Positions 36,909 to 56,931 of a stretch of 64,000 nucleotides of DNA are shown here, piece by piece (positions within the stretch are counted from its first letter, which is position 1; each line of letters opens with the position of its first letter). The translations under genes were made by a program, and so were the position numbers. The stretch is from Neorhizobium sp. NCHU2750 (GTDB taxonomy: Bacteria; Pseudomonadota; Alphaproteobacteria; Rhizobiales; Rhizobiaceae): contig NZ_CP030830.1 of assembly GCF_003597675.1 (NCBI RefSeq), forward strand, positions 62,001-126,000, in the 5' to 3' direction. The notes under the pieces are model-generated. The model was not told the origin of the DNA and made no database searches. It was given only the letters and a program-made list of their open reading frames with translations.

Positions 36909-36960
36909 TTGCAATCCTTCGCTCGTGGGCAGTCGGGAGCTGCCTGATGGGAGGAAGAAA

Positions 36961-37953
36961 GTGCTGAAAGTCGGATTGCTCGGCGCAGGCCGTATCGGCC
37001 GCGTGCATGCCATCAATATCGCCGCTCACGCGCGCAGCCAGCTGGTTGCGGTCTCGGATGTCAACGCGGATGCGGCGCAGACGCTGGCCACGGCGCATGG
37101 CGCGAAAGCTTCGACATGGGATGCGATCCTGAACGACCCGTCGATCGACGCGGTTCTGATCGCCACGTCGACGGACACCCATTCCGATCTGATCGAAAAG
37201 GCGACCGCCGCCGGCAAGCGCGTTCTGTGCGAAAAGCCGGTGGATCTGTCGCTGGAGCGCGCGCAGCGGTGCCTGGCCGCCGTTGCGAAAACGGGCATCC
37301 CCGTCATGATTGGCTTCAATCGCCGGTTCGACCCGAATTTTTCCACATTGAAGGCGTCGCTGACGGCGGGGGAGATCGGCAAGCCCGAGCTTCTGTCTAT
37401 CACCTCCTTCGATCCGTCGCCGCCGCCGGTTTCCTATGTGAAGGTTTCGGGCGGCCTGTTCCGCGACATGATGATCCATGATTTCGACATGGCGAATTTC
37501 CTGATGGGAAGCGCGCCGCAGAAAATCCACGCGGCCGGCACCTCGATCGTCGACCCCGAAATCGGCAAGGCCGGCGACGTTGATACGGCGGTGGTGACGC
37601 TCACCTATGCCGACGGCCGCATCGCGGTCATCAAGAACAGCCGTCGCGCCGTCTATGGCTACGACCAGCGTGTCGAGTTGCTCGGGTCGCAGGGGCTTCT
37701 GTCGGCCGGCAACGTTCTCGAAAACACCGTTTCAAGATCGACCGGCAGCGGCGTGGTCAGCGCCAAGCCGGAACTGTTCTTCCTCGAGCGCTACATGCGC
37801 GCCTATGTGGCGGAATGGGATGCGTTCGTCGCCTCGGCGCTCGACGGCGCCGCCGTGCCTGTTTCGCTGGAAGACGGCGTTGCCGCGCTGGCGCTGGCGG
37901 AAGCGGCAACGGAATCGGCACGCTCCGGCCAGGCGGTCCTGCTCGCGCAATAG
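36961..37953 (+). CDS. iolG: Inositol 2-dehydrogenase (Gfo/Idh/MocA family)
   Basis: 330 residues from GTG 36961 with GGGAGGAAG upstream. The NAD fold begins LKVGLLGAGRIGRVHAINIA; the family EKP motif is CEKPVDLS, and the catalytic region GGLFRDMMIHDFDMANFLMG contains the H-D pair. It oxidises myo-inositol to 2-keto-myo-inositol (scyllo-inosose). It heads the iol operon; the assignment to inositol rests on this context as well as on the family. Confidence 0.9.
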   Translation: MLKVGLLGAGRIGRVHAINIAAHARSQLVAVSDVNADAAQTLATAHGAKASTWDAILNDPSIDAVLIATSTDTHSDLIEKATAAGKRVLCEKPVDLSLERAQRCLAAVAKTGIPVMIGFNRRFDPNFSTLKASLTAGEIGKPELLSITSFDPSPPPVSYVKVSGGLFRDMMIHDFDMANFLMGSAPQKIHAAGTSIVDPEIGKAGDVDTAVVTLTYADGRIAVIKNSRRAVYGYDQRVELLGSQGLLSAGNVLENTVSRSTGSGVVSAKPELFFLERYMRAYVAEWDAFVASALDGAAVPVSLEDGVAALALAEAATESARSGQAVLLAQ

Positions 37954-39972: not shown

Positions 39973-41801
39973 CTTCGACGAGACTGACGGCCGCGCAGGC
40001 CATGGTGAAATGGCTTGCCGCGCAGATGACGGAAGACGGCGAGCGTTTCGTCGACGGTATCTGGGCGATCTTCGGTCATGGCAATGTGGCAGGTCTCGGC
40101 GAAGCCCTGCAAAAGGCGGGCAACAGCCTGCCCACCTGGCGGGGCCAGAACGAGCAGACCATGGCCCATGCGGCCATAGCCTTTGTAAAGGCTTCGAAGC
40201 GCCGCCGGGTGCAGGCGGTGACGTCGTCGATCGGCCCGGGCGCGACCAATATGGTGACGGCGGCGGCTCTCGCGCATGTCAACCGGCTGCCGCTGCTTCT
40301 CATTCCCGGCGATGTCTTTGCCAATCGACGGCCCGATCCGGTGCTTCAGCAGATCGAGGATTTCGACGACGGCACGGTATCGGCGAATGACTGCCTGCGC
40401 CCGGTCAGCCGCTATTTCGACCGCATAACACGGCCCGAACAGCTTTTAACGGCGCTGCCGCGGGCGTTGCGCGTGCTGACGGATCCGGCCAATTGCGGGC
40501 CGGTGACGCTGTCCTTCTGCCAGGATGTGCAGGCGGAAGCCTATAACTGGCCGGAGGCGTTTTTCGAGCCGAAAGTCTGGCGCATTCGCCGACCGGAACC
40601 GGATGCCGTCGATCTCGAAGAGGTGGCGGGCCTCATCCTTGCGGCGAAAAACCCGGTCATCGTTGCCGGCGGGGGCGTGATCTATAGCGGCGCCGAGGCA
40701 GATCTCGCCGAATTCGCCACCCGTCACGCCATTCCCGTCATCGAGACGCAGGCCGGAAAATCGGCGCTGGCGCAAAGCCATCCGATGAATTTCGGCGCAG
40801 CCGGCGTGGATGGCTCGGCGGCCGCCAATACACTTGCGCGAAAAGCCGATCTCGTCATCGGCCTCGGCACCCGCTTCCAGGATTTCACCACCGGCTCATG
40901 GTCGCTCTTCGAAGCCAGGGGGCGTCGGCTTGTATCGATCAATGTGCAGGCCTATGACGCCGACAAGCATGGCGCAACCGGCCTTGTCGCCGATGCGAAG
41001 GTTGCGCTTGCCGCACTCGGCAGGAAGCTCGGCGCCTTCACCGCACCAGCCCCGGATGCCGCCATCCGGACGGCCTGGCTTGCGGCCGTGGACAAGCATT
41101 GCGCGGCCCCCGAGGCGGCCGGCCTGCCAAGCGACGCGCAGGTGATCGGCGCCGTGCAGCGGGCGACCGGCGAGAGCGCCATTGCCATGTGCGCGGCAGG
41201 CACGATGCCGGGGGCGCTGAAGCTTCTGTGGCAGCCCAGCCAGGGCGGCTACCACATGGAATATGGTTTTTCCTGCATGGGCTACGAGATTGCCGGTGCG
41301 ATGGGGCTGAAGCTCGCCAGCCCCGAGCGGGAAATCATCTGCTTCGTCGGCGATGGTTCCTACATGATGGCGAATTCCGAGCTTGCGACCGCCGTCATGC
41401 GCAAGGTGCAGTTCACCGTGGTTCTGACCGATAACCGTGGCTATGGGTGCATCAACCGTCTGCAACGCGGCACCGGCGGCGAGGCCTTCAACAATCTCTA
41501 TCGGGATTGCAATGTCGAACAGCAGCCGCAGATCGACTTCGTCGCCCATGCCGCCGCACTCGGCGCGGCCTCGGTCAAGGCAAGCGATATCGCGGATCTC
41601 GAGCGGCAGATCGAGAAGGCCCGCTCGCGCGACATACCGACCGTCATCGTCATCGATACCGATCCGACGGATGGTCCGGGTTTCGGCGATGCCGGCAACT
41701 GGTGGGATGTCGCGGTGCCGCAGGTCGGCAATACGGAAAAGCTGAAACAGGCTTACGCGCGTTATCTCGAGAGCGCCGCCAAACAGAACACCGTCAACTG
41801 A
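39969..41801 (+). CDS. iolD: 3D-(3,5/4)-trihydroxycyclohexane-1,2-dione hydrolase
   Basis: 610 residues, a thiamine-diphosphate enzyme. The N-terminal PYR domain has WAIFGHGNVAGLGEAL and SIGPGATNMVTAAALA; the central domain PVIVAGGGVIYSGAEA; the PP domain has the ThDP motif VGDGSYMMANSEL..VVLTDN. It hydrolytically opens the ring dione in inositol catabolism. It is translationally coupled to iolC by a 4-base overlap (39969-39972). Confidence 0.94.
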   Translation: MTSTRLTAAQAMVKWLAAQMTEDGERFVDGIWAIFGHGNVAGLGEALQKAGNSLPTWRGQNEQTMAHAAIAFVKASKRRRVQAVTSSIGPGATNMVTAAALAHVNRLPLLLIPGDVFANRRPDPVLQQIEDFDDGTVSANDCLRPVSRYFDRITRPEQLLTALPRALRVLTDPANCGPVTLSFCQDVQAEAYNWPEAFFEPKVWRIRRPEPDAVDLEEVAGLILAAKNPVIVAGGGVIYSGAEADLAEFATRHAIPVIETQAGKSALAQSHPMNFGAAGVDGSAAANTLARKADLVIGLGTRFQDFTTGSWSLFEARGRRLVSINVQAYDADKHGATGLVADAKVALAALGRKLGAFTAPAPDAAIRTAWLAAVDKHCAAPEAAGLPSDAQVIGAVQRATGESAIAMCAAGTMPGALKLLWQPSQGGYHMEYGFSCMGYEIAGAMGLKLASPEREIICFVGDGSYMMANSELATAVMRKVQFTVVLTDNRGYGCINRLQRGTGGEAFNNLYRDCNVEQQPQIDFVAHAAALGAASVKASDIADLERQIEKARSRDIPTVIVIDTDPTDGPGFGDAGNWWDVAVPQVGNTEKLKQAYARYLESAAKQNTVN

Positions 41802-41810: not shown

Positions 41811-42707
41811 ATGATCCGCTACGGCACCAATCCCATCGCCTGGGCCAATGACGACGACCAGAGCCTCGGCGCCAATATCCCCACGGAGCAGATCCTTCGG
41901 GAGGCAAGCGAGATCGGCTTTGACGGTATTGAAAACGGTCATCGCTGGCCGAACGATCCGCAGGCCCTGAAGGAATTGCTCGGGAGCTTCGGCCTCGCCT
42001 TCGTCTCCGGCTGGTATTCGCTCAACCTTCTGACGCAGCCGGTCGAGGACGAGAAGAAGGCGATCCAGCCGCATCTCGACAAGCTCAAGCACAATGGCTG
42101 CACGGTCTGCATCGCCTGCGAAACATCGAACAGCGTGCAGGGGCTGCAAGAACCGCTGTCGCAGAGCCCCGTACTCTTGTCCGAAGAAATGAAGGCTTTC
42201 GGGGCAAAGGTGGAGGCGCTTTCGGCCTTCACCGCAAGCCAGGGCATCAAGCTCGTCTATCATCACCACATGGGAACGGTGGTAGAAACGCCGGAAGAGA
42301 TCGATGCCTTCATGGCGGCGACCGGCCCCCAAACCCGCCTTCTGTTCGATGCCGGCCATTACTATTTCGGCGGCGACGGCCGAGATCCGACGCCGGTGCT
42401 TGCCCGCCATATCGACCGGGTCAGCCATTTCCATGCCAAGAATGTCCGCCCTGCGATCATGCGGAAAGTGCGCGAGGAGGGGCTTTCCTTCATGGATGGC
42501 GTGCGTGCCGGCGTGTTCACCGTGCCGGGCGACGAGGAAGGCGGCGTCGATTTCGCACCGCTTCTGAGTATCCTCAAGCAGGCCAGCTATGACGGCTGGA
42601 TCGTCATCGAGGCAGAGCAGGACCCTGATGTCCGCAATCCCTTCCATTATCAGTCGCTCGGCCTAAAGACGCTGAAGGCGCAAGCCGCAAGCCTCAATCT
42701 CGCCTGA
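41811..42707 (+). CDS. iolE: Inosose dehydratase
   Basis: 298 residues, a xylose-isomerase-like TIM barrel: [62 protein letters not shown], and [20 protein letters not shown] carry the metal-binding Glu/His/Asp. It dehydrates 2-keto-myo-inositol. It starts 9 bases after iolD. Confidence 0.95.
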
Positions 42708-42726: not shown

Positions 42727-43524
42727 ATGTCCCATCTTCTCCATCGCCCCTTCGGCACGCATGGCAAGGTTCACGAGATCACGCCTGCTCTTGCGGGCTG
42801 GCGCCATGTCGGCTTTTCGCTCTATCGCCTGCGCGCCGGCGAAACGGCCAGCGAAGCGACAGGCGAGCGCGAGGTCATCCTCGTCATGATCGAGGGAAAG
42901 GCTGCAATCGAGGGGGTGGGGCGGTACTGGGGCGTGCTCGGCGAGCGGATGAGCGTCTTTGAAAAATCGCCTCCCCATTGCCTCTACCTGCCGAATGGCA
43001 GCGAATGGACGGCGAAGGCTGCGACCGATTGCGTCATCGCGATCTGCTCGGCGCCCGGCAAAGGCAGCCACGAGGCGCGCCGCATCGGCCCCGACGGCAT
43101 CACGCTCACCCAGCGCGGCGAGGGCAGCAATACCCGTTTCATCAACAATATCGCCATGGAGAACGAGGATTACTGCGACGCCCTTCTGGTGACGGAGGTC
43201 TTCACGCCGGCCGGGAACTGGTCGAGTTATCCGAGCCATCGCCATGACGAGGACGATTTTCCGCGCGTCACCTATCTGGAAGAGACCTATTATCACCGGA
43301 TCGATCCCGCCGACGGCTTCGGCATCCAGCGCGTCTATACGGACGACCGCCAGCTCGACGAAACCATGGCCGTGCATGACGGTGATGTCGTCTGCGTGCC
43401 GCGCGGACACCATCCATGCGGCGCGCCGCATGGATTTGAAATGTACTATCTCAACGTGATGGCCGGCCCCTTGCGCAAATGGCGCTTTGTCGCCGCCCCA
43501 CCGGTGGCGCATCTCATGCGGTGA
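42727..43524 (+). CDS. iolB: 5-deoxy-glucuronate isomerase
   Basis: 265 residues, a bicupin. The metal-site region reads YPSHRHDEDDFPRVTYLEET and later PRGHHPCGAPHGFEMYYLNVM. It isomerises 5-deoxyglucuronate to 5-dehydro-2-deoxygluconate, the IolC substrate. It is the last gene of the operon; no iolA (methylmalonate-semialdehyde dehydrogenase) follows. Confidence 0.95.
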   Translation: MSHLLHRPFGTHGKVHEITPALAGWRHVGFSLYRLRAGETASEATGEREVILVMIEGKAAIEGVGRYWGVLGERMSVFEKSPPHCLYLPNGSEWTAKAATDCVIAICSAPGKGSHEARRIGPDGITLTQRGEGSNTRFINNIAMENEDYCDALLVTEVFTPAGNWSSYPSHRHDEDDFPRVTYLEETYYHRIDPADGFGIQRVYTDDRQLDETMAVHDGDVVCVPRGHHPCGAPHGFEMYYLNVMAGPLRKWRFVAAPPVAHLMR

Positions 43525-43577
43525 CGGCATCGCCCGGCGGAATTCCGTCGGACGATACGGCATTCAGAAACGATCAA

Positions 43578-43610: not shown

Positions 43611-44654
43611 TCAGGGATCGAGCCTTTTTCCCCCCGCGTCAAAGTGGTGCAGATTGCCAGCAGCCGCCGACACGCTCACCTCGTCGCCGATAGCAATCCG
43701 CGAGCGGCCGGGAACGCGGAAGACGATCGGATGTCCGGTGGCCGTCGTTGCATGAACATAGCTTTCGGCGCCCACGAGTTCGACGGCAGCCACGGTCACG
43801 CGAACGGCGAAGGGATGGGAAGGGTCCTGCCCGAGAACGAGATCTTCCGGCCTGACCCCGATCGTTCCGCCTTTCTCCGCGCCATCCGCCAGGGCGGCCC
43901 CTGCCGCAACGACGGTTTCCTGCGCGATCAGGTTCATGGAGGGCGAGCCGATGAATGTCGCGACGAAGGTCGTTGCCGGCCGCTCGTAAAGCTCGATCGG
44001 GGTTCCCACCTGCTCGATCCGGCCGCCGTTCAGGACCACGAGCCGATCCGCCAGCGTCATCGCCTCCATCTGGTCATGGGTGACATAGATGCTGGTTGTG
44101 GCAAGCGACCGCTGGAGTCTTCGGATTTCCACGCGCATTTGCACACGCAGCTTGGCGTCGAGATTGGACAGAGGCTCGTCGAACAGGAAGACGGCCGGCT
44201 TTCTGACGATTGCCCGGCCCATCGCGACGCGCTGACGCTGGCCGCCGGAAAGCTGGCGGGGTTTTCTGTCGAGAAACGGCTCGATCTCCAGCGCCCTCGC
44301 AGCCTCGGTGATGCGGCGGTCGATCTCATCTTTCGGTGTGCCACGGTTCTTCAACCCGTAGGAGAGGTTCTGGCGCACCGTCATATGTGGATAAAGCGCA
44401 TAGTTCTGGAAGACCATAGCGATATCCCGTGCGGCTGGTTCCAGGTCATTGACCCGCCTTCCGCCGATTGCCACCTCGCCGGAAGTGATGCCTTCGAGGC
44501 CCGCCACCATTCTCAATAGCGTGGACTTGCCGCAGCCGGATGGGCCGACGAGCACGATCATCTCGCCATCCGCGATCTGCAACGAGACGCCCTTGATCGC
44601 CTCGATGGTGCCGCCATAAATTTTGCGGACATCGTTCAATTCGATCTGTGCCAT
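43611..44654 (-). CDS. ugpC: sn-glycerol-3-phosphate ABC transporter ATPase
   Basis: 347 residues. Walker [11 protein letters not shown]-loop [11 protein letters not shown], signature LSGGQRQR, Walker [13 protein letters not shown], and a C-terminal TOBE/regulatory region of the MalK/UgpC type. It powers the UgpAE permease. Its start overlaps the stop of the preceding permease gene by one base. Confidence 0.93.
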
Positions 44655-45502
44655 TACTTTTCAGTCTCCACCAAACCTTTGACGAACCAGCGCTGCATCA
44701 GGACCACGACGACGACCGGCGGGATGATGGCGAGAATTGCTGTGACCATGACGTAGTTCCACGGCGTTGACGCGTCGGCGAAATCGACCATCCTGCGAAG
44801 CCCGATGATGATCGTGTTCATCTCGGCCTTGTCGGTGACAAGAAGCGGCCAGAGATATTGCGTCCAGCCATAGATGAAGAGAATGACGAACAGGGCGGCG
44901 ATGTTCGTCAGCGACAGCGGCAGGAGAATGTCGCGCATGAAGCGGAAAGGCCCGGCGTTGTCGATTCGGGCAGCCTCGACCATTTCTCCGGGAATTGTCA
45001 GGAAGAACTGGCGGAACAAGAAGGTCGCTGTTGCGGACGCCATCAGCGGCAGCGTCAGGCCGGCATAGGTGTTGAGAAGGCCGAGATCAACGATCACCTT
45101 GTAGGTCGGTAGGATGCGGACTTCGACCGGCAGCATAAGCGTGACGAAGATCATCCAGAAGAACAGGTTTCGGAATGGAAACCGGAAGAAGACGATCGCG
45201 AAGGCGGACAGGAAGGATATGACGATCTTGCCGATGGCGATCGTCATCGCCACGACGAAACTGTTGAAGAGAAGACGTTCGAGGCTCACGCCGACCACCC
45301 GTTCGACGCCGCCGCCGATCGCATCGGCGTAGTTTTCGACCATATGTCCAGCCGGGAGGAGAGAGAGCGGCGGACGCAGAATGGCCGACGACGTCGCGGT
45401 CGACGCAACAAACGTATAGTAGATCGGAAAGGCGACGATGATGATCCCGATAATCAGCATCAGATGCGCCATGAGCCGTGCAAGGGGGCGGTTTTCGATC
45501 AT
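44654..45502 (-). CDS. ugpE: sn-glycerol-3-phosphate ABC transporter permease UgpE
   Basis: 282 residues with six transmembrane segments and the MalG-type EAA loop [20 protein letters not shown]. It pairs with UgpA in the membrane. The start lies 9 bases after the ugpA stop. Confidence 0.92.
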
Positions 45503-45511
45503 TTCGGAACC

Positions 45512-46393
45512 TCACGCATAATGCACGCGCCGCTCGACGAAGCGGAACTGGAAGGCCGTGAGCGCAATGACGATGACCATCAGCACCACCGATTGGGCCG
45601 CCGACGAGCCGAGGTCGAGATTGACGAAGCCATCGTTATAAACCTTGTAGACGAGCGTTTCCGTTGCCTTCGCAGGCCCGCCGCCCGTCACTGCATGAAT
45701 GATGCCGAACGTGTCGAAGAAGGCGTAAACAGTGTTGACCACCAGCAAGAAGAAGGTCGTCGGCGCCAGAAGTGGAAAGACAATCGTCCAGAAACGGCGG
45801 CTGCCACGCGCGCCATCGATTGCGGCAGCCTCGAGCAACGATTTCGGGATCGCCTGCAGCCCTGCGACGAAGAAGAGAAAATTGTAGCTGATCTGCTTCC
45901 ACGCGGCGGCGATCACCACGAGAACCATCGCCTGATTGCCGTTAAGCAGCGGGTCCCAAGGCACGCCATTTCGGCGCAGCAGATAGGCAAGTGTCCCCAT
46001 GGCCGGGTTGAACATGAAGAGCCATAACATGCCGGCAAGCGCTGGCGCTACCGCATAGGGAATGATCAGCATGGTACGGTAGAGCCCCTTGCCGCGCACC
46101 ACAAGATCGGCAGAGGTCGCAAGCAGAAGCGCCACGGCCATCGCCAGAAAGGCGGTCGCCACGCTGAAGATTACGGTCGTCCTGAGTGACGACAGATAGG
46201 TCTCGTCAGAAAGGATGGCGGTGAAATTCGCCAGCCCAACGAAGCCGCTCTGCAGCCCGAACGGGTCTTCGCGCATCATCGACTGGTAGAGCGCCTGGCT
46301 CGCGGGCCAGAAGAAGAAGATGACCGTCAGGATGATCTGTGGGGCGACCAGGAAATAAGGCAGGATCCTGTTTGGAAAAATGACGTTCTGCAT
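45512..46393 (-). CDS. ugpA: sn-glycerol-3-phosphate ABC transporter permease UgpA
   Basis: 293 residues from ATG 46393 (GGAGGAG upstream), six transmembrane segments, EAA loop [20 protein letters not shown]. The longer frame to 46453 would run through the hairpin after ugpB. Confidence 0.92.
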
Positions 46394-46421
46394 GGGGCTC
46401 CTCCAGGCCTCAGGAAGGGCA

Positions 46422-46445
46422 GCTCCCGAGAGCTGTCTCGGGAGC
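46422..46445 (-). other. Intercistronic hairpin between ugpB and ugpA
   Basis: A perfect 9-bp stem GCTCCCGAG / CTCGGGAGC with a 6-base loop, just after the binding-protein gene. Such hairpins commonly raise binding protein over permease expression. Confidence 0.65.
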
Positions 46446-46465
46446 CGATTCACGTCACTTTCCGA

Positions 46466-47773
46466 TCATTTTCCGATGGCCTTCTGGATCGCCGCATTGC
46501 CGCGCTCGACCGCCTTGTTCAGGGCCGTCTTGGCATCCTGCTTGCCGGCGAGCATAGCTTCGAATTCCTCGTTCATGATGTCGCGAACCTGCGGCAGGTT
46601 GACAAGTCTAACACCTTTGGAATTCGGCGTCGGCGCCTTGCCCATCATCTGCTGGATCGGCGTCTCGCGGCCGGGGTTCTTGTCGTAGAAACCTGATTTC
46701 TTCGTTTCGTCATAGGCGGCAAGGGTGACGGGAAGATAGCCGGAAACCTGATGCAGTCTGGCCTGGATCTTAGTTTGCGACAGGAAATGGAAGAAGGCTG
46801 CGGTGCCCTTGTATTCCGCATCGCTCTTGCCGGCAAAGACCCAGAGGCTTGCTCCTCCAGGAATGGTGTTTTGCGGCCGTCTGTCACCTTCGTAGTAAGG
46901 GAGTTGGCCGATGCCGTAATTCATGCCCGACTTGATGATATCGCCGAGACCACCGGAAGATTCAGTCAGGATGCCGCATTCGCCCGACGTGAAGAGCTGC
47001 TTAGCCTCGGATGTACGACCGCCATAGCGGAAAGTGCCGTCCTTGGCGAGATCGGCGATCGACTGGAAGTGCTTGACGAAAAAATCGGAATTGAACGTCA
47101 GCTTGACATCGGTCCCGCCGAGGCCGTTCTCATTACTGCCATAAGAAACGTTATTCCAGGCGGCGAGGTTTTCCGTCTGGATCCACGTCAGCCATGTCGA
47201 TGTGAAACCGCAAGGTGCCGCCCCGCTGGTCTTGATCTTGCGGGCCGCCTCAAACAGTTCGGGCCATGTTTTCGGTGGATTGGCAGGATCGAGCCCGGCC
47301 TTCTGGAAGACGTCCTTGTTGTAATAGAGGATCGGCGACGAGGAATTGTAGGGGAAGGACAGCATGGTGCCGTCGGGCTTAGAATAATAGGCGACGATGC
47401 CGGGGAGATATTCCGACTTGTCGAATGTGTATCCACCCTTGGTCAGCACGTCGGCCACCGGCACGATCGCGCCCTGCGCGCCCATCATCACGCCGCTGCC
47501 GGCATCGAAGACCTGGATGATGGCCGGCGGCTGCTTGGCCCGGAAGGCGGCAATCCCGGCATTCAGTGTTTCGGGGTAGGTGCCCTTGAACACTGGAACG
47601 ATCTTGTAGTCGCCCTGGCTGTCGTTGAATTCCTTGGCGAGCTGCTCGACGACTTCGTTATTGGCCCCAGTCATGGCGTGCCACCACTGAATCTCAGTGG
47701 TGGCCATCGCGGACGAACCCATCACAGCCGACAAGCCGGCTGCAACAATTGCTGTCTTCATACTGCTTCTCAT
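46466..47773 (-). CDS. ugpB: sn-glycerol-3-phosphate/glycerophosphodiester-binding protein UgpB
   Basis: 435 residues with signal peptide (MRSSMKTAIVAAGLSAVMGS, then SAMA). The mature protein follows E. coli UgpB closely by eye: IQWWHAMTGANNEVVEQLAK, DYKIVPVFKGTYPETLNAGI, PYNSSSPILYYNKDVF, GGASLWVFAGKSD and SGYLPVT. It binds glycerol-3-phosphate and, in some bacteria, glycerophosphodiesters in the periplasm. Start 47773 has GGGAGG upstream. It lies 103 bases after the phosphatase gene, on the same strand. Confidence 0.94.
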   Translation of the reverse strand: MRSSMKTAIVAAGLSAVMGSSAMATTEIQWWHAMTGANNEVVEQLAKEFNDSQGDYKIVPVFKGTYPETLNAGIAAFRAKQPPAIIQVFDAGSGVMMGAQGAIVPVADVLTKGGYTFDKSEYLPGIVAYYSKPDGTMLSFPYNSSSPILYYNKDVFQKAGLDPANPPKTWPELFEAARKIKTSGAAPCGFTSTWLTWIQTENLAAWNNVSYGSNENGLGGTDVKLTFNSDFFVKHFQSIADLAKDGTFRYGGRTSEAKQLFTSGECGILTESSGGLGDIIKSGMNYGIGQLPYYEGDRRPQNTIPGGASLWVFAGKSDAEYKGTAAFFHFLSQTKIQARLHQVSGYLPVTLAAYDETKKSGFYDKNPGRETPIQQMMGKAPTPNSKGVRLVNLPQVRDIMNEEFEAMLAGKQDAKTALNKAVERGNAAIQKAIGK

Positions 47774-47876
47774 GGATGTTCCTCCCTTTACCATGAAGCC
47801 GATCTCTGCGAGCGGGATCCTCCAATCCCACCTTGGGCCGCCTCCATGTTTCGATCGGGGCAGCGCCATGTTGTGA

Positions 47877-48701
47877 CTATGTGTGCGCTAGACTTGCGGC
47901 GTCAATGCCTGCAATCCGTGTGAGATCGTCGAGGGCACCAGGTCCGCCGGCAACGACGGGTGCGCCCCTTGTCAATTGCTCTTGCCCGGTCGGGAACGGA
48001 TGATACCAGCCGCCCGCCTCCTTCACGAGGCAATAGCCGGCAAGGCAATCCCAAGCATGCATGTAGGGTTCGTAATAGCCGACGAGGCGACCGGCCGCGA
48101 CATAGGCGAGCATCAGTGCACCGGAACCATTGCGAATGAAGTTTCCGCCGGCCTCCAAGAGGCTTTCGACCATCCTTGCGACGAAGGCGGGCGTGACGTG
48201 ACTATTGGCGCCGATACCGGTGACGGCATTGCGGATGGTCTTGTCAGGTGAGAGTGACAAAGGATTGCCGTTCAGGGTTGCGCCGCCGCCGGCGCGCGCG
48301 GCGTATGTTTCATCAAAGCAAGGCGCATAGATCACGCCAAGCACTGGACTTCCATCGTGAAGGAGGGCGATCGAAACGCACCAGTTGGGCATCCCATTGA
48401 CGAAGGGGCTGGTGCCGTCGATCGGATCTACAACCCATGTAAAGCCGGAATTGCCATTTTGCAGACCATATTCTTCGCCAAGAACACCATCGTCTGAGAA
48501 GGCTTCGGCAAAGCGGGATCGGATCAGTTCTTCTACCTCACGGTCCGCGATGGACACTACATCTTGAGGGTCGCGCTTGGTTTCGATGACCAGCTTGTCA
48601 CGTTCCTTGAAATAATGAAAAGCGAGCTTGCCCGCTTCCTGCACAACGACCTGTGCCAGCTGGAACCTTTCGTCAAGGCCGGCGATCGACGGGGAATTCA
48701 T
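47877..48701 (-). CDS. Inositol-monophosphatase-family phosphatase
   Basis: 274 residues. All metal-site motifs of the IMPase/HisN family are present: GEEYG (about 95), WVVDPIDGTSPFVNGMP (about 112-128) and AWDCLAGYCLVKEAGG (about 213-228). Members dephosphorylate inositol phosphates, histidinol phosphate or other sugar phosphates with Mg2+. Start 48701 has AAGGA upstream; the longer frame would overlap the ATPase gene. It is 40 bases downstream of the AfuC-like ATPase and 103 bases upstream of ugpB, so between two importers of phosphorylated solutes. No signal peptide, so it acts inside the cell. Confidence 0.9.
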   Translation of the reverse strand: MNSPSIAGLDERFQLAQVVVQEAGKLAFHYFKERDKLVIETKRDPQDVVSIADREVEELIRSRFAEAFSDDGVLGEEYGLQNGNSGFTWVVDPIDGTSPFVNGMPNWCVSIALLHDGSPVLGVIYAPCFDETYAARAGGGATLNGNPLSLSPDKTIRNAVTGIGANSHVTPAFVARMVESLLEAGGNFIRNGSGALMLAYVAAGRLVGYYEPYMHAWDCLAGYCLVKEAGGWYHPFPTGQEQLTRGAPVVAGGPGALDDLTRIAGIDAASLAHT

Positions 48702-48741
48702 GGAGGAGATCCTTTGCGTGGTTGGCTCGTAAGAAAAGGAA

Positions 48742-49803
48742 TTAGCCGATGATAGCGATGCCGCGATCGCGAAGTCCGATCTTGACCCTTGTCGAGATGG
48801 GAAGCGGTTCATCGGCGGTGGCATCGACAACGAAGAGTTTCGAGGATCCGGTGTCCACTTCATACTCGACATGATCCCCAAGATATGCCGCGTGGATGAT
48901 CTCTCCAGAAAAACCGACAGCCGAGCCATCGGGGGAAAGGTCGATGGCGTTAGGTCGGATTGCAAGCTGTGCGGCCCCTTGCTGCGCCTTGCCGGCGGGC
49001 AGGCGGTGGCGAAGACCCGCGATGTCGATCAGGGCCTGTCCGGCGTCCACCGCGAGCACGTTGCAATCGACGACATTGGCCTCGCCCATGAAATCGGCAA
49101 TAAAGGCGGATGTCGGCGCCTCGTAGAGATCGCGCGGGGCGCCCTGCTGGGCAATACTGCCGTCCTTCATGACGATGATCTCGTCGGATACTGCAAGGGC
49201 CTCATCCTGGTCATGCGTGACATACACCGCAGTGAAGCCAAGCCGCTGCTGCAACTCGCGAATCTCGGTTCTCACCCGCCTGCGCAAACGCGCATCAAGA
49301 TTGGATAGCGGCTCGTCGAGCAGTAGGACCTGCGGTTCCAGGACCAGCGCGCGGGCCACTGCGACACGCTGCTGCTGACCACCGGAAAGCTCGGCAGGCA
49401 ACCGATGTCCCATGCCGGCAAGTCCCACCAGCTTCAAGCCCTCCTCGGCTTGCTCGCGCGCTTCGTTACGCTTGATGCCGGAAGACTGGAGACCGTATGC
49501 GACATTGTCGAGCGAGGTCATGTGGGGAAATAGAGCGTAGCTCTGAAACACCATCGACACGTCGCGCTCGTTGGCGGGCAACATTGTGACATCCTTGCCG
49601 CCGATCAGGATGCGGCCGGAACTCGGATGTTCCAGACCCGCCAGCATCCGCAGCGTCGTCGTCTTGCCACAGCCGGACGGACCAAGGAGGGTGACAAGCG
49701 TGCCGGGCTTGATGGTGAGCGACAGATCTGGAATGGCCGTAAAGGCACCGAACGACTTGCGGACATTCTCGAAGACAACGGAGCCGGGATTAATCATGCT
49801 CAT
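48742..49803 (-). CDS. AfuC/FbpC-like ABC transporter ATPase
   Basis: 353 residues. Walker A GPSGCGKTT, Q-loop VFQSYALFPHM, signature LSGGQQQR, Walker [13 protein letters not shown], plus a C-terminal TOBE domain. Start codon ATG 49803 overlaps the permease stop by four bases. It belongs to the ferric/polyamine/AfuC branch; the substrate is set by the binding protein. Confidence 0.9.
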   Translation of the reverse strand: MSMINPGSVVFENVRKSFGAFTAIPDLSLTIKPGTLVTLLGPSGCGKTTTLRMLAGLEHPSSGRILIGGKDVTMLPANERDVSMVFQSYALFPHMTSLDNVAYGLQSSGIKRNEAREQAEEGLKLVGLAGMGHRLPAELSGGQQQRVAVARALVLEPQVLLLDEPLSNLDARLRRRVRTEIRELQQRLGFTAVYVTHDQDEALAVSDEIIVMKDGSIAQQGAPRDLYEAPTSAFIADFMGEANVVDCNVLAVDAGQALIDIAGLRHRLPAGKAQQGAAQLAIRPNAIDLSPDGSAVGFSGEIIHAAYLGDHVEYEVDTGSSKLFVVDATADEPLPISTRVKIGLRDRGIAIIG

Positions 49804-52052
49804 GCTACTTTCTCCTGAGCGATTGGCGTTCTCGCCGAAGCTGCCGGCGCCGCCGACGCAACCCGGTTTTCGCGCCGCAGGCGCCGCTCCCCGACAAGCA
49901 GCTGGAAGCCGGCAATGACGGTGAGCATGACGAGGATGAGGGCGGAGGAATAGGCGATGGCGACACCATACTGGCCATTTTCCACCAGCCCGACGATGAA
50001 GGCGGTCGACATGTTGTATTGCGCACTGACGAGAAAGATGACGGCGCTGATCGAGGTGATGGCCCGCACAAAGGAATAGACCAGTGCCGCATTGATCGCG
50101 GGACGTAGGAGCGGCAGAATGACCTTGCGGATTGTTCTGAAACTATTCGCTCTCAAGGTTAGCGACGCCTCATCCAGGCTCTTGTCGAGCTGGCTCATGG
50201 CCGCGACGCCGCCGCGCACGCCAACCGGCATATTGCGGAAGACGAAGCAGGCGACAAGGATCAGCGCCGTTCCCGTCATTTCCAGCGGCGGCAGGTTGAA
50301 GGCCATGATGTAGCTGATGCCAATCACGGTTCCCGGAATGGCAAAGCTCATCATCAGCGCAAACTCGAACAGGTTGCGGCCGGCAAATTTCTGGCGAACG
50401 ATGATATAAGCAGTGAGAAGCCCGACGGCTGCCGTCAACGGTGCCGAAATCAGCGCGATCTCCATCGTCGTCCAGAAGGAGTTCCAGGCGACGCCGGACC
50501 ATTCGATGGCCCCATCGTTGCGCAACCCGACCGAGAAGGCACGGACATAGTGTTCGATCGTCAGGCTGTTATCAAGGCCCCAGGTCCGAACGAAACCACC
50601 GAACAGGATCATTCCGTAGATGACTAGCGTGAAGGCGATCCAGGGAAGCACGAGCACATGAATCGCGATTGACAGGCCTCGGGGAAGGCCGGCATGGGCG
50701 CCGGAATCGCCCTTGCCGGTCACCGTTGCAAAATTCTTGCCCGAAAGCCAGAAACGCTGAGCGATGAAGGCCGTCATTGTAAAGAAGAGAAGGATCATCG
50801 CCAGAACAGCCGCGCGTGACGGATCATTCTGGGAGCCGACGACGGCGAAGAATATCTCAGTCGACAGCACGCCGTTGCTGCCGCCAAGCACCATCGGATT
50901 GCCGAAATCTGCCATGCTTTCGATGAATCCGATCAGAAAGGCGTTTGCGATCCCTGGGGCCATCAGCGGCAAGGAAACCCGCCAGAACGTGCGCCAGCGG
51001 TCTGCGCGCAGAGTTTGCGAGGCCTCTTCCATCGACGGGCTGACACCTTCGACGACGCCGATCAGGACGAGAAATGAAATTGGGGTAAACGATAAGACCT
51101 GGGCGATCCAAATGCCGATCAGACCATAGAGCCAACGGCTCGGCTCCGTGCCGGTGAGGCTTGCGAACCATTGGGTGACGACGCCGGAGCGACCAAACAG
51201 CAGGATGAGCGCCAGGCCGATAACGAAAGGCGGAGTTATGATCGGCAAGATGGTGAGAAGACGAAGGCCTTTCTTGAAAGGAAAGCGCGTGCGTGTTGCG
51301 ACCAGCGCGAAACAAAGGCCGAGCAATGTCGAGCCGCACGCCGTCATTATGGCGAGCCACAGCGTACGCCAGGCAACGCCGCATCGGTCACCGCCAACGA
51401 GGCAATCGAGGCTCCAGATCGATGGGTCCTGGATATTGCCGGTAAACCCGCTGGCATCAAACGAGCCATCGAAGGATTGGAAGGCGGCCACAAACATGCT
51501 GCCAACCGGGTAAAAGACGAAGATCGACACGAGTACGATCAGCATCGATATGGCACCGATGACAAAGGCATCGCCTTTCATCACGCCCCGTTCAGCAAGG
51601 CCAAAAGCGAACATCAGGACGAAGACGATGCCGGCTAAAACGCCGCCTGCACCGATGGAGGGTTGACCGTCGGCAAGTGGACCGAAGAGCGCCTCAAGAA
51701 ATGACCAGCTCCAGCCGGAAAAATTGATCGCCAAGCCCTGGACCACCAGGAAGAGCACGCCGGCAGCACCCACACAGGACAACGCGGCGCCGCGAGTTTC
51801 CGGGGCCTGCAGGAAGCGCGTTGCACCAGCGGTCAGGAGGAGTAGGGCAGGGATGATCAGCCACCACCTTCCGAATTCGGCGATTTCCAGCACAAGCGGG
51901 GCATTTGCGGCATCGTTGAGGAAGCTCGAAAGCCAGCCGAAGCTGTAGAAGCCACCCTCGATCCGATACCAGGGCAGGGTGATAAGGCCGACGAGGCCGA
52001 CGATGAAGGCAATATCCTGCCTCCAATGCACCCTTCGAATGAGATGGGTCAT
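49800..52052 (-). CDS. Fused two-domain ABC permease (AfuB/FbpB-like)
   Basis: 750 residues, with about 14 hydrophobic segments and two permease halves, each with an EAA-type loop (MEEASQTLRADRWRTFWRVSLP and LDEASLTLRANSFRTIRKVILP; shown here as separate copies). An extra N-terminal membrane region of about 200 residues is longer than in FbpB. Start 52052 has GGGAAG upstream. Confidence 0.9.
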   Translation of the reverse strand: MTHLIRRVHWRQDIAFIVGLVGLITLPWYRIEGGFYSFGWLSSFLNDAANAPLVLEIAEFGRWWLIIPALLLLTAGATRFLQAPETRGAALSCVGAAGVLFLVVQGLAINFSGWSWSFLEALFGPLADGQPSIGAGGVLAGIVFVLMFAFGLAERGVMKGDAFVIGAISMLIVLVSIFVFYPVGSMFVAAFQSFDGSFDASGFTGNIQDPSIWSLDCLVGGDRCGVAWRTLWLAIMTACGSTLLGLCFALVATRTRFPFKKGLRLLTILPIITPPFVIGLALILLFGRSGVVTQWFASLTGTEPSRWLYGLIGIWIAQVLSFTPISFLVLIGVVEGVSPSMEEASQTLRADRWRTFWRVSLPLMAPGIANAFLIGFIESMADFGNPMVLGGSNGVLSTEIFFAVVGSQNDPSRAAVLAMILLFFTMTAFIAQRFWLSGKNFATVTGKGDSGAHAGLPRGLSIAIHVLVLPWIAFTLVIYGMILFGGFVRTWGLDNSLTIEHYVRAFSVGLRNDGAIEWSGVAWNSFWTTMEIALISAPLTAAVGLLTAYIIVRQKFAGRNLFEFALMMSFAIPGTVIGISYIMAFNLPPLEMTGTALILVACFVFRNMPVGVRGGVAAMSQLDKSLDEASLTLRANSFRTIRKVILPLLRPAINAALVYSFVRAITSISAVIFLVSAQYNMSTAFIVGLVENGQYGVAIAYSSALILVMLTVIAGFQLLVGERRLRRENRVASAAPAASARTPIAQEKVA

Positions 52053-52117
52053 GGTGATCTTCCCGAAGTGATAAGAGCTTTCCGGTCCAGGCATTCGCCT
52101 GTGTTCCGGGCTATTGG

Positions 52118-52160
52118 CACTGCCTGATCCGGTGGTTGTCCTCCCACGGGCCAGGCAGTG
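52118..52160 (-). other. Intercistronic hairpin between binding protein and permease
   Basis: A 9-bp stem CACTGCCTG (52118-52126) with CAGGCAGTG (52152-52160). It lies just after the binding-protein gene, the same position as the hairpin after ugpB. Confidence 0.55.
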
Positions 52161-52172
52161 GTCGAGGGCAGA

Positions 52173-53201
52173 TCAGTTCGCCTTGGCGCCTATCTCTTTG
52201 TCCCAACGGGACAACAGCGCCTTGCGCACAGCCGGATCACCATACTTGGCAAAATCATAGTTGATCAGCTTGATGTCTTCGAATTTGGGCGCTTCTTTCG
52301 GTATCTCTGCCGACTTGTTGGATGGCAGTTGATAGGACTTGCCATCCTTCATATGCGACTGCGCCTCAGCACTCAGTGCCCAGTCATACCATTTCTTGGC
52401 GTTTTCCAAGTTTTTGGCACCCTTGATGATCGACATCGATCCAATCTCGTAGCCAGTCCCCTCGCAAGGGGCAACGGACTTGATCGGAAACCCTTCGACC
52501 GTCTGGGCAACGGCATCATGCATGAACACGATGCCGATCGTCGCCTCTCCGCGGGCCGCGGCCTTCACCGGCGCCGAACCGGATTTGGTATATTGCGAGA
52601 TGTTGGCATTAAGCTTGCCTAGATAGTCGAATGCCTTGTCCTCGCCCATGATTTGCACGAGCGTCGCAAGTGTGTTGTAGGATGTGCCCGATGAATTGGG
52701 GTTGGCGATCTGTATCTCGCCCTTGTAGGCAGGATCGAGAAGATCGGCCCAGCATTTCGGCTCCTTCAGCCCCTTCTTCTTAAGAAGATCGGTGTTGTAG
52801 CCCCAGCCGAGCGCACCTGCATAAACCCCGACGGTGCGAAACTTGGCACTCTCCGCCTGTTTTTTCGCCCAGTCCTGCAATTGGTCGAACAGCGGTGACT
52901 TGTATTCCTGCGTCAACCCCTCCGCTGCAGCCTGAAGATGCGGGTCTCCCGTTCCCGCCCACCAGATGTCGGTCTTCGGATTGCGTGCTTCCGCACGGAT
53001 CTTCGCATAGGTTTCCCCCGCCGAGAGACGGACCATGTTGACCTTGATGCTCGTCTGCTTCTCGAACAGGTTCTTCATGACGTCACAAACTTCGGGATCT
53101 GCCGAGCAGATCATATTGAGATCGTCCGCAGCATGCGCGGAAAAGGCAATAAGGGATACGCCCCCGGCAAGCATTGCCGCGGCCAGTGTCTTGATGCTCA
53201 T
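52173..53201 (-). CDS. AfuA-like periplasmic binding protein
   Basis: 342 residues with signal peptide MSIKTLAAAMLAGGVSLIAF..SAHA. The mature protein is of the COG1840 type (ferric, phosphonate and AfuA-like hexose-phosphate binders): TDIWWAGTGDPHLQAAAEGL, GWGYNTDLLKKKGLKEP, ANPNSSGTSYNTLATLV. At the position where iron binders have a conserved Tyr-Tyr pair this one reads GIVFMHDAVAQ, so it is probably not an iron protein. An organic phosphate or similar anion is more likely. Divergent from the LacI gene at 53383. Confidence 0.88.
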   Translation of the reverse strand: MSIKTLAAAMLAGGVSLIAFSAHAADDLNMICSADPEVCDVMKNLFEKQTSIKVNMVRLSAGETYAKIRAEARNPKTDIWWAGTGDPHLQAAAEGLTQEYKSPLFDQLQDWAKKQAESAKFRTVGVYAGALGWGYNTDLLKKKGLKEPKCWADLLDPAYKGEIQIANPNSSGTSYNTLATLVQIMGEDKAFDYLGKLNANISQYTKSGSAPVKAAARGEATIGIVFMHDAVAQTVEGFPIKSVAPCEGTGYEIGSMSIIKGAKNLENAKKWYDWALSAEAQSHMKDGKSYQLPSNKSAEIPKEAPKFEDIKLINYDFAKYGDPAVRKALLSRWDKEIGAKAN

Positions 53202-53241
53202 ATTTTCCTCCTTAGGGGCGACGCCTCCACGTCGCCAGCTA

Positions 53242-53257
53242 TTGCAAGCGTGTGCAA
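53242..53257. promoter_or_regulatory. Candidate LacI-type operator 1
   Basis: TTGCA-N6-TGCAA in the 181-base gap between the divergent AfuA-like and LacI genes. Confidence 0.62.
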
Positions 53258-53327
53258 CGCTCTCATGGGCATTGCTTTATGTCAATCACTAAACCCCAGT
53301 GATGCGGATATTCGTGTTCATTTCGGC

Positions 53328-53345
53328 ATTGCACGCAATTGCAAT
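53328..53345. promoter_or_regulatory. Candidate LacI-type operator 2
   Basis: ATTGCACGCAATTGCAAT: a 6-bp perfect inverted repeat ATTGCA-N6-TGCAAT with the same core and spacing as operator 1, 86 bases away. Confidence 0.65.
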
Positions 53346-53382
53346 ATGGTGCATTACCTTGTGCAATATCGTGGGGTTTGAG

Positions 53383-54387
53383 ATGCGAAAAGAGTTTGTC
53401 AGTGCCCAGGAGGTAGCGGAAAAGGCAGGGGTTTCACGGTCGGCCGTCTCACGTACGTTTACAGCTGGTGCAAGCGTATCTCCGGAAACCAGAAAACGTG
53501 TTTTGGCCGCTGCCGATGAGCTTGGTTACCACGTCAACCAGCTCGCCCGTGGGCTTATGCGCAACGAGACGGGCATCGTCTGCCTTGTAGGATCTGAAGT
53601 TGCCACGCCTTATCGCTCGGTCCTGCTACGCGAACTGACCCAGCAACTCCAAAGCGTGGGCAAGGTGGCAATGCTGATCAATACCGACAGGTCTGACGGC
53701 AGTGTCGATCGCGCGCTGCAGCAGGCGATACGCTACCGCGCCGATGCTTCGATCATCATGTCGGGGATGCCAGACAAGTCGATCGCTCAGCTTTGCCTGC
53801 GCAGCGGTCAAAGGCTCGTTCTCATTAATCGGGATGACGATCAACTTGGTTCGCTGCGTATCAACCTCGACGATCATGAATGCGGGGCACGTATCGCAAC
53901 GGCCTTCGTCAGGGCAGGGTGCCGACGTCTCGCCTTTGCCAATTCCGAGGCGGGAACTCCCAGTCTCATGGGCCGGGAACATGGTTTCGTTGCTGCAGCA
54001 CGGCGACTGGGAATGGACGTGGTCGTGCAAAGATTTGGCCATACGGGCTACGATGCGGGTCGCGTTCTTGCACAGCGTCTTTTGACCCGATCCGACCGCC
54101 CTGATGCCGTGTTCTGTGCGACGGATCTTATCGCCTGCGGGTTCATGGATGCCGCACGCCATCAGTTTCGCATCGCGATACCGCATGAACTCTGTGTGGC
54201 TGGTTTCGACGACATAGAACAGGCTGCATGGTCTTCCTATGATCTGACGACATTTTCGCAGCCGGTGGCGGCGATCGCCAAGGAGGCTATTCGTTGGCTC
54301 CAGGCGAATGCGTCAGAGGGAGAAACACCAACCGGGGTTAGACTCAATGCGGATTTGGTCTGGCGGGGCACAGTGCGAGGCGCATAG
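53383..54387 (+). CDS. LacI-family regulator of the Afu-like/phosphatase/ugp cluster
   Basis: 334 residues from ATG 53383. HTH SAQEVAEKAGVSRSAVSRTF, hinge ADELGYHVNQLARGLMRNE, effector domain ending VAGFDDIEQAAWSSYDLTTF. It is divergent from the transporter genes, with two matching palindromes between them, so it is probably their regulator and self-regulator. Confidence 0.9.
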   Translation: MRKEFVSAQEVAEKAGVSRSAVSRTFTAGASVSPETRKRVLAAADELGYHVNQLARGLMRNETGIVCLVGSEVATPYRSVLLRELTQQLQSVGKVAMLINTDRSDGSVDRALQQAIRYRADASIIMSGMPDKSIAQLCLRSGQRLVLINRDDDQLGSLRINLDDHECGARIATAFVRAGCRRLAFANSEAGTPSLMGREHGFVAAARRLGMDVVVQRFGHTGYDAGRVLAQRLLTRSDRPDAVFCATDLIACGFMDAARHQFRIAIPHELCVAGFDDIEQAAWSSYDLTTFSQPVAAIAKEAIRWLQANASEGETPTGVRLNADLVWRGTVRGA

Positions 54388-55254: not shown

Positions 55255-56931
55255 TTACAGTGCTGGAGCTGCGCTGTCGTTCGACGAGAGGCGGCTCTGC
55301 AACAGCTCGCCTTGCTTCTCAAGCACTGGGTATGCCGTCGCGGCGATCAGATGCGAGTTGATGGATTTCAAGTCTCGGATGATATCGAGATGCAGCGAAC
55401 TCGTTTCCATAGTGTCCAGACCGCCCCTCCTAAGCCTGTCGAAATGGGCAGCTGTCGTCTCACGTTCGGCACGTCTGAAGATCACCTTTTCTCCTGCAAG
55501 CATGCGGGCCAAACGCTCGTCCTGTGACATGAACAAGGCCGCAGCCGTATCGAGATTGGTGACAAGCCTGTCGAACAGGCCGCAAAGTTCGTCCTGACCG
55601 GGCTTGGAGAAGGTCAAGCCGCGGCGCACACGCTTGGCAAGATGTGGCAGCAGGTTCTGATCGAGGACGTCGCCCGCCTGTTCCAGGTTCATCGAGAATA
55701 GAAGGATCTCGTCCATCCGGCCACGGTCAGCATCGCCGATCTCGTCGGGATCTATGGATGTCAGGTAGGTCTTGATGGCGGTGTTCAGGCTATCAAGGAT
55801 GTTATCTTTCTTTCTCAACTCAGCGAGGGCTCGACGGTCGGTTGACGACACTGCGGCCTTCGCGCCTATGATCATTTCGCGTAGCACATCGGTCAGACGG
55901 AGCGCTTCGCGGGAAGCAGCACCGAGCGCAACCACCGGCGTCTCCTTCGCTCCGGCATCGAGGTAGCGAGGTTTGGATGGGTCTGCGTCGTCGATCCTCT
56001 GCGGAAGCATTTTCACCAGGAAGTCGGCATATGGCTGCAGGAACGGCATGAAGAGTATGGCGAGGAGGAGATTAAATGCGGTATGGAAATTGGCGACACT
56101 GCGCGATGCATCGTCGCTTAACATACTCATCAGCGCCGTCAGCGGGCTTAGGGTGGCGAGCGCGGCAACGACGCCAACGAACCTGGTCAGAAGATTGCCG
56201 AGCGGCAGGCGTTTCGACGCTAGATCACCGTCCGAGTGGCCCTCGACGACAGGATTGATGGACGTGCCGAGGTTTGCACCGAGAACGAGCGCGAACGCTT
56301 GATAGGGGTCGATCAGCCCTTTGGTGGCGAGCGACATGATCAGCAAGACGATGGCGACGCTGGAATGGGCGGCCCATGTCAGGACAGCCGCCAGAAGGAC
56401 ACTCAGGATGGGCGTCGTGGCAATGCTCTTCAGGACATAGGACAGGGCCTCCGATCCTTCGTACTGTGTCATCATCTCCAGCAACTGGTGCAGAGCCAAC
56501 AGCATAAAGCCCAAGCCGATCACGACACGGCCGAGATCATGGATCTGCGGGTTACCGTTCCGCTTGAACATGATGAAGCCCGCGAGGACGAGCGCGGGAT
56601 AGAGTGCTGCAACGTCGAACGACAGAACCTGGACGATCAGCGTCGTACCGACGTTCGCGCCGAGCATGACGGATAGGGCAGGCATCAAACCGACAAGGCC
56701 GCCGGCTGCAAAGCCTGACGCCATCAGACCGGTTGCTGTGCTACTTTGGAGGACGGCGGTCACACCGAGACCGGCCATAAATGCCTTGAAACGATTGCTC
56801 AATGCACGGCCAAGGAATGTCCGTAGGCTCGGCCCGAAGGCTCTTTGTATGCCCGTCTGAACCATGCGCGTGCCCCATAAAAGGAGCGCAATGTGACCCG
56901 CCAGTCCGACGAGGCCAATGATGAAAGCCAT
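55255..56931 (-). CDS. Na/Pi cotransporter family protein with PhoU-like domain
   Basis: 558 residues. Two inverted NptA-type repeats with the signature QSSTAT (about 62-67) and the matching WAAHSSVAIVLL, eight or so membrane segments in residues 1-310, and a helical PhoU-like C-terminal domain (about 340-550). It is a sodium-driven phosphate carrier or exporter. A Pho-box-like repeat lies about 110 bases upstream of its start. Confidence 0.92.
   Translation of the reverse strand: MAFIIGLVGLAGHIALLLWGTRMVQTGIQRAFGPSLRTFLGRALSNRFKAFMAGLGVTAVLQSSTATGLMASGFAAGGLVGLMPALSVMLGANVGTTLIVQVLSFDVAALYPALVLAGFIMFKRNGNPQIHDLGRVVIGLGFMLLALHQLLEMMTQYEGSEALSYVLKSIATTPILSVLLAAVLTWAAHSSVAIVLLIMSLATKGLIDPYQAFALVLGANLGTSINPVVEGHSDGDLASKRLPLGNLLTRFVGVVAALATLSPLTALMSMLSDDASRSVANFHTAFNLLLAILFMPFLQPYADFLVKMLPQRIDDADPSKPRYLDAGAKETPVVALGAASREALRLTDVLREMIIGAKAAVSSTDRRALAELRKKDNILDSLNTAIKTYLTSIDPDEIGDADRGRMDEILLFSMNLEQAGDVLDQNLLPHLAKRVRRGLTFSKPGQDELCGLFDRLVTNLDTAAALFMSQDERLARMLAGEKVIFRRAERETTAAHFDRLRRGGLDTMETSSLHLDIIRDLKSINSHLIAATAYPVLEKQGELLQSRLSSNDSAAPAL

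Follow-up and report, generated by a model that had tools for sequence, protein, structure and literature searches.

Two putative ABC importers of phosphate esters, with a phosphatase of the IMPase family encoded between them, lie side by side in the genome of Neorhizobium sp. NCHU2750. They occupy part of a window of 64,000 nucleotides (contig NZ_CP030830.1, positions 62,001 to 126,000; the window is the whole stretch of DNA analysed, and coordinates without a prefix refer to it), where eight minus-strand genes, all open and complete, run from 53201 to 43611 in the order afuA-afuB-afuC-IMPase-ugpB-ugpA-ugpE-ugpC. Homology and motifs suggest that this block imports phosphate esters, and conservation argues for both the importer-phosphatase unit and its predicted operator sites; inositol phosphate is the leading but unproven candidate for the ligand of the first importer.

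The first importer would consist of an AfuA-like periplasmic binding protein of the sugar- or cyclitol-phosphate type (52173..53201), an AfuB-like fused permease (49800..52094) and an AfuC-like ATPase (48742..49803) recognised by family searches. The permease is a single open reading frame (ORF) of 764 amino acids with two membrane domains, each a BPD_transp_1 (PF00528) stretch, and falls below the PhnU2 cut-off. The phosphatase gene (47877..48701) sits in an ORF that opens at 48965 and probably starts at the ATG at 48701. The second importer comprises ugpB (46466..47773), the permease genes ugpA (45512..46453) and ugpE (44654..45502) and the ATPase gene ugpC (43611..44654). Each product exceeds its own NCBIfam cut-off (NF008211, 509 against 411 bits; NF007852, 385 against 335; NF008210, 398 against 297; and NF008653, 538 against 432, respectively). 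The ugpB ORF begins at 47869, from which its residues are numbered here, and its likely start is 47773; given these two starts, the gaps around the phosphatase gene measure 40 and 103 bases.

On the plus strand lie iolG (inositol 2-dehydrogenase, 36925..37953), iolC with a C-terminal extension (38053..39972), iolD (39966..41801), iolE (41811..42707) and iolB (42727..43524). IolG (TIGR04380, 440 against 355 bits) and IolB (TIGR04378; match at C4:104772, window 42772; C1, C4 and C5 are contigs of this genome) exceed their equivalog cut-offs, IolD is 61% identical to a protein of locus L073 that itself passes TIGR04377, and iolC and iolE are named from sequence reading and gene order. Since iolB and ugpC end 86 bases apart on opposite strands (43524 and 43611), the two operons converge. 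A terminator scan of the region found 20 candidates where 11.0 were expected, and a weak minus-strand stem lies at 43575-43590, just past ugpC; a promoter scan found 2 where 4.4 were expected. An earlier note, made from the sequence alone, had described the eight co-directional genes, the two gaps and the convergence on iolG-C-D-E-B, all of which are present. The extent that it gave, 43611..54387, is correct at its left end; 54387 is the far end of a divergent LacI-family gene and not of the eight-gene run.

AfuA relatives (E 1e-50) occur in 91 of the 397 genomes of the order that were searched, from which 100 stretches were fetched as an order sample. A further set of 80 named loci represents the best 80 of at least 587 confirmed AfuA places and therefore leans toward close kin, the nearest being Neorhizobium alkalisoli at 96%. 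In 77 of these 80, AfuA, AfuB, AfuC and IMPase genes are consecutive and in one direction, so the gene order is not due to chance. The exceptions, without IMPase after AfuC, are L156, L183 and L220 (L-numbers denote loci, G-numbers genomes and f-numbers families); L156 has a phosphatase gene of 38% identity upstream on the other strand. L170 and L226 each have a pair of adjacent AfuC-like stretches ahead of IMPase, which may reflect a frameshift or duplication of the ATPase gene. In 49 of the 80 named loci a gene for a LacI-family regulator, here called LacI2, stands divergently next to afuA. Eight loci (L052, L053, L055, L056 and L059-L062) have two tandem afuA genes, mostly with divergent sensor and response-regulator genes where LacI2 stands elsewhere.

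The phosphatase belongs to the Inositol_P family (PF00459) and is one of eight PF00459 places in its genome. It scores below the cut-offs of HisN (TIGR02067, 163 against 275 bits), SuhB (NF008027, 125 against 332) and CysQ (98 against 229). Paralogues in the same genome exceed the HisN (L005, 308 against 275) and CysQ (251 against 229) cut-offs, and a SuhB-like copy falls below its own (222 against 332). The motif 5 aspartate of HisN, four residues after an arginine (PMC5516325), is present in the HisN of this genome (RYGCD) and is replaced by glycine in the aligned segment of the block phosphatase (RNGSG). A HisN identity, which the earlier note had listed among the outcomes that would refute its proposal, is thus rejected by score, by motif 5 and by the existence of a separate HisN. 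A quick tree of 46 rows places the AfuABC-linked copies with an acc-like paralogue (L004), apart from the HisN, CysQ and SuhB-like copies of this genome; the second copy in L236 falls outside this group, and some of the deep branches are weakly supported or long. A non-HisN phosphatase as a usual partner of AfuABC is supported, and despite its SuhB score the enzyme may still act on inositol phosphates.

The solved chains closest in sequence to the 52173 protein are AfuA 4r72 (E 9e-90), 8x1a and P5PA 6wce. The closest kin with known ligands are AfuA, which binds glucose-6-phosphate (G6P; PMC4546632), and P5PA, which binds pyridoxal phosphate (PLP; PMC8427247), both holding the ligand through its phosphate. 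In AfuA, Ser37 and Thr150 hold the phosphate, and G6P binding is lost when His205, Asp206 or Glu229 is changed to alanine (PMC4546632). This His-Asp-Glu triad and Thr150 align with H228, D229, E252 and T173 of the window protein, and none of the four positions varies among the 29 rows aligned, one from the window and 28 from the set of 100 order-sample loci. P5PA has alanine in place of both the Asp and the Glu, and its type of pocket (Leu105, no triad Asp or Glu) is absent from the window protein, where Gly129 occupies the Leu105 position. The similarity to AfuA also fits the earlier note's view that the protein lacks the Tyr-Tyr pair of iron binders. An organic phosphate ligand, as the earlier note had proposed, is therefore likely given the proximity to a hexose-phosphate binder and the retention of triad and Thr150; a phosphorylated ring with hydroxyls would be expected, because four AfuA residues are kept and P5PA lacks two of them.

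A link between the AfuABC-phosphatase unit and inositol catabolism, recurring in different arrangements and families, is supported by comparison across the order. In the order sample, iolB is found in 73 of the 88 genomes with AfuA at E 1e-100 or better, against 94 of the 309 others (Fisher p 6e-19, with genomes counted regardless of kinship; 166 of the 167 iolB genomes are in the list). At least 10 of the 88 have AfuA no more than 25 kb from a listed iolB, and at least 7 have it no more than 10 kb away, where the rough expectation is 0.3 (73 genomes of about 5 Mb with one iolB each). Other iol genes stand beside AfuA in a further four genomes (G327, G354, G137 and G296), so that iol genes are near AfuA in at least 14 of the 88, in families f1, f6, f27, f35 and f42.

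The arrangements vary. In L072, L082, L084, L086 and L146, iolC diverges from an iolG-IMPase-afuABC run, with an RpiR-family gene between them in L072, L082 and L086; the same run stands beside iolD-E in L073, and iolD-E-B is followed by IMPase-afuABC in L077. In L139 and L148, iolC and iolG are beside afuABC with no IMPase in the stretch, L148 also having UgpBAEC, and on the short contig of L149 only iolG is seen beside afuABC. Convergence of afuABC-IMPase on iolB-E-D-C, with no UgpBAEC between, occurs in L163, L164, L165 and L178, and the layout of the window itself in L150, L171 and L288. The iol genes lie on the regulator side in L219, and iolG alone is seen in L290. In f6, L236 clusters iol genes, a metallophosphoesterase, NptA, LacI2, IMPase and AfuABC; L237 is similar, with AfuABC outside the stretch, 24 kb from iolB. 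All 10 IolG, IolD and IolB proteins tested from iol-linked loci pass the equivalog cut-offs. On an AfuA tree (FastTree; 174 rows, the window plus 173 of 180 loci after removal of seven distant ones, with some genomes present in both samples), 18 rows carry the iol label, with 11 changes, counted as gains or losses, of which at least 8 are forced by well-supported branches; the stretches scored did not take in the f6 clusters. The finding is stronger on the axis of AfuABC, phosphatase and inositol than the window alone could show.

LacI2 (53383..54387, plus strand) is encoded divergently from afuA in an ORF that opens at 53299, most homologues aligning from residue 25-32. The gap between the two genes contains two palindromes 87 bases apart, TTGCAAGCGTGTGCAA (53242..53257) and TTGCACGCAATTGCAA (53329..53344), which are kept across loci and are presumed LacI2 operators. 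The LacI-type operator TTGCAMRCGYKTGCAA, counted where 9 or all 10 of its outer letters match, precedes afuA in 49 of 50 gaps, the 50 being that of the window and those of 49 named loci; L226 alone lacks it, and loci from Erwinia, Pantoea and Enterobacter are among those that have it. Two copies are present in 40 of the 50, spaced by 78 to 125 bases and mostly by 87-99. The number of matches in the window is no evidence in itself, since at up to one mismatch there are 4 against 2.05 expected, a value reached by 15 of 100 shuffles; the weight lies in position and conservation. Across the genome the pattern occurs at five places, against none for a reversed-pattern control. Two are those at afuA, one precedes an NptA-type gene, one (C1:3994848) fits a LacI2 paralogue 4 kb away, and one, an exact LacI2-type palindrome (L240:1501-1516), lies between phoR-like and pstS-like genes. 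The last was not met again among those listed places that came with a locus, which make up part of the list. In L236 the operator lies both between NptA and LacI2 and before AfuA. Other members of the regulator family also stand by importers: in L286 (4849-10159) and L287 (2693-8770) a different ABC importer, preceded by a palindrome of its own, is followed by a LacI2 paralogue (43%), and in G402 an IMPase-family gene leads the ABC-importer operon of a LacI2 paralogue. The LacI2 match in L275 (G399:C10:63633-64691) contains one TGA, which may lie upstream of the true start.

The proposed regulon may extend to phosphate export. A Na/Pi transporter gene of the NptA/YjbB kind (55255..56931, minus strand; PF02690 and a weak PhoU match) lies beyond LacI2 and encodes a possible phosphate exporter, YjbB, of the same kind, having been called one (PMC10055408). 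NptA-type genes are near AfuA in 8 of the 174 tree rows, as well as in L236 and L237. The operator is found 84-96 bases before such a gene in this genome (G000, L241:1501-1516) and in G401 and G399 (L263, L265). Control by LacI2 is suggestive only, because, of 13 NptA-type copies in the genus, 3 have kept the site, and G403, G405 and G406 encode a LacI2 with 66-67% identity and lack it. If the operon releases phosphate within the cell and the ring serves as carbon, the phosphate would need a way out. Further out, at 57655-60233 on the minus strand, the ORF list indicates another ABC ATPase and a two-domain-looking permease outside the block.

UgpBAEC is a later, recurrent addition outside the conserved core, which weakens the earlier note's inclusion of it in the pathway. 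Among the 80 named loci UgpB is encoded nearby in 15 and immediately follows IMPase in 12. UgpBAEC is the only element that recurs directly after IMPase in the 80 named loci, save for one gene family in three close Phyllobacterium loci. On the AfuA tree the Ugp label marks 18 rows, with 9 changes, 7 of them forced by well-supported branches. Nine residues of Phaeobacter UgpB hold glycerol-1-phosphate or glycerol-3-phosphate (G3P), Glu88 among them (PMC12718374). Eight of the nine are kept in the block UgpB, as are both Trp clamps of G3P binders; Glu88 is replaced by Asp122. Aspartate occupies this position in all 18 rows of at least 79% identity; two of these represent the gene in the window itself, and L150 and L288 seem to be a single genome. 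It also occurs in a distant UgpB-like protein in L246 (37%). Glutamate is found in loci with another Ugp joined to AfuABC (L148, L156, L196 and L224) and in the UgpB of a second UgpBAEC on contig C1. In a mycobacterial glycerophosphocholine (GPC)-binding protein, Asp102 has the role of Glu88 (PMC12718374), and the Asp122 subtype hints at a glycerophosphodiester ligand.

Taken together, these features suggest a LacI-controlled operon that imports phosphate esters of a ring polyol and uses the polyol as carbon, a reading to which we give about an even chance. The ester imported by AfuABC would be a monophosphate, most probably inositol monophosphate in this lineage. In the cytoplasm the IMPase-family enzyme would remove its phosphate, and free inositol would enter iolG-C-D-E-B. 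The NptA/YjbB-type transporter may export excess phosphate, UgpBAEC would bring in a related glycerol-phosphate or glycerophosphodiester, and LacI2 would repress the operon. A more specific version is possible but distinctly tentative: inositol phosphates would have a dedicated route into inositol catabolism, made up of an importer of the AfuABC type, a captive phosphatase and a UgpBAEC variant that takes up a glycerophosphodiester, for example glycerophosphoinositol. One LacI regulator would govern all of it and might also drive a phosphate exporter, and the module would have been assembled several times in alphaproteobacteria.

Several observations weigh against the ring-polyol reading. In the 52173 protein an alanine stands at the position of AfuA Ser37, and the S37A change in AfuA weakens binding without abolishing it (PMC4546632). 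Actinobacillus AfuA separates G6P from glucose-1-phosphate (PMC4546632), which counts here because glucose-1-phosphate and inositol monophosphate both carry the phosphate on the ring. Genes iolB, C, D or E are near AfuA in 7 of the 80 named loci, the other 73 showing none in the stretch read. The nearest order-sample relative with the whole block (L050) shows no iol gene across the 19 kb read, a stretch that extends almost entirely downstream, and in G381 the link is loose, with iolB 25 kb off and unrelated genes between. No operator precedes iolG in the window at up to one mismatch, and an exact-site scan of 25 loci found sites in 8 and none before iolG; shared operator control of afuA and iolG is therefore not supported, and iolG has a separate divergent regulator, LacI1 (35768..36790, minus strand). 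The block contains no PF03009 glycerophosphodiesterase gene, the four PF03009 matches of this genome being on other contigs. Finally, three f41 genomes (L074, L079 and L131) have IMPase-AfuABC beside zwf- and edd-like genes (named from sequence reading, with a gluconolactonase family shown for L074 only), which implies a hexose-phosphate setting. The finding is weaker on Ugp and on shared control. The earlier note's interpretation is supported in part: the organic phosphate, a phosphatase other than HisN and the inositol link stand, whereas Ugp lies outside the conserved core, L050 lacks the iol adjacency of the window, the operator seen before afuA is missing before iolG, and glycerophosphoinositol is weakened.

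The main and serious rival, which we consider somewhat unlikely, is that AfuABC imports hexose or heptose phosphates (G6P, fructose-6-phosphate) as in Actinobacillus, that the phosphatase frees the sugar and that the iol neighbours reflect general carbohydrate islands. The triad is that of G6P-binding AfuA, the f41 loci provide a fitting context, and in four f44 loci (L092, L094, L095 and L096) a HAD-family gene (Pfam on the L095 copy) follows AfuABC in the place of the phosphatase, so that the unit may serve several sugar phosphates. However, imported G6P needs no phosphatase, the iol linkage with its at least 8 forced changes includes iolG-IMPase-afuABC runs, and UgpBAEC, apart from the Phyllobacterium case, is alone in recurring directly after IMPase. 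In view of the zwf/edd settings, the HAD replacement and the two-component replacement of LacI2, the AfuABC-IMPase unit is best seen as a general phosphoester import-and-dephosphorylation device for which inositol is one repeated outlet.

Import of glycerophosphoinositol through UgpBAEC as the main substrate, split inside the cell to inositol phosphate, overlaps with the ring-polyol reading, their probabilities not being exclusive, and is improbable in itself. The Asp122 subtype, with its parallel in the mycobacterial GPC binder and its contrast with Phaeobacter Glu88, and the repeated joining of UgpBAEC to AfuABC loci (L148, L196, L200 and L224) speak for it; the rarity of UgpB among the named loci and the retention of both Trp clamps speak against it, and the absence of a glycerophosphodiesterase from the block makes it weaker. 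Ugp is a classical phosphate-starvation importer. A general organic-phosphorus scavenging cluster, with both importers serving phosphorus supply and iol adjacent by chance, would accord with this, with the operator-like site between the phoR-like and pstS-like genes and with the iol-free surroundings of L050. It is nevertheless quite improbable, as the conserved site in the afuA gap is of LacI type, the iol linkage recurs and a recurrent neighbour is a Na/Pi transporter, of a kind for which phosphate export has been reported. Carriage of iron, polyamine or PLP was suggested by distant matches to binders of the first two and by the iron names carried by PDB entries 4r72 and 8x1a. These ligands are rejected by similarity (best polyamine binder 5e-13 and best iron binder 7e-9, against 9e-90 for AfuA) and by binding residues, P5PA lacking the Asp and Glu kept in the window protein; moreover, P5PA is described as limited to Pasteurellaceae (PMC8427247), and we regard this alternative as extremely improbable.

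Phosphorylated inositols are a large pool of soil organic phosphorus. If the ring-polyol reading is true, an importer that takes them up whole and burns the ring would explain carbon use of part of that pool and assign a role to an importer whose relatives are named for iron or 2-aminoethylphosphonate; the conserved operator should make the regulon easy to map. Among the papers listed by searches of an open-access library, judged by titles and the beginnings of abstracts, none linked AfuABC to inositol.

Among known systems, the agrocinopine acc operon of A. tumefaciens likewise encodes an ABC importer for a phosphorylated sugar compound together with AccG, its putative dedicated phosphatase (PMC4526662). 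The genome has a locus on C5 that looks like this operon (L234, G000:C5:164000-183999), with DeoR, a family-5 binding protein, peptide-type ABC genes, GDPD and an IMPase-family phosphatase beside an NptA-type gene. It differs from the block in its binding protein, GDPD gene and DeoR regulator, and no Afu or iol genes were found in the 20 kb read. HisN, SuhB and CysQ have the Inositol_P family in common with the block phosphatase, which lies below all three cut-offs. The UgpBAEC of E. coli and the Phaeobacter UgpB (PMC12718374) are matched by four block proteins over family cut-offs and by eight of nine pocket residues, respectively, whereas Glu88 is Asp in the block subtype. The P5PA importer (PMC8427247) shares family and phosphate-binding end with the block protein; it lacks the Asp and Glu and, as counted on the alignment, has Leu105 where the block protein has Gly129. 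The AfuABC of Actinobacillus pleuropneumoniae (PMC4546632), in whose main text the word inositol was not found, has a binding protein of the same family with the triad and Thr150 in common; the block differs in the Ala at Ser37, the LacI operator sites, the IMPase-family partner and the iol linkage. The placement of importer and phosphatase next to inositol-catabolism genes in some relatives suggests an uncharacterised route for the use of phosphorylated inositol or similar sugars.

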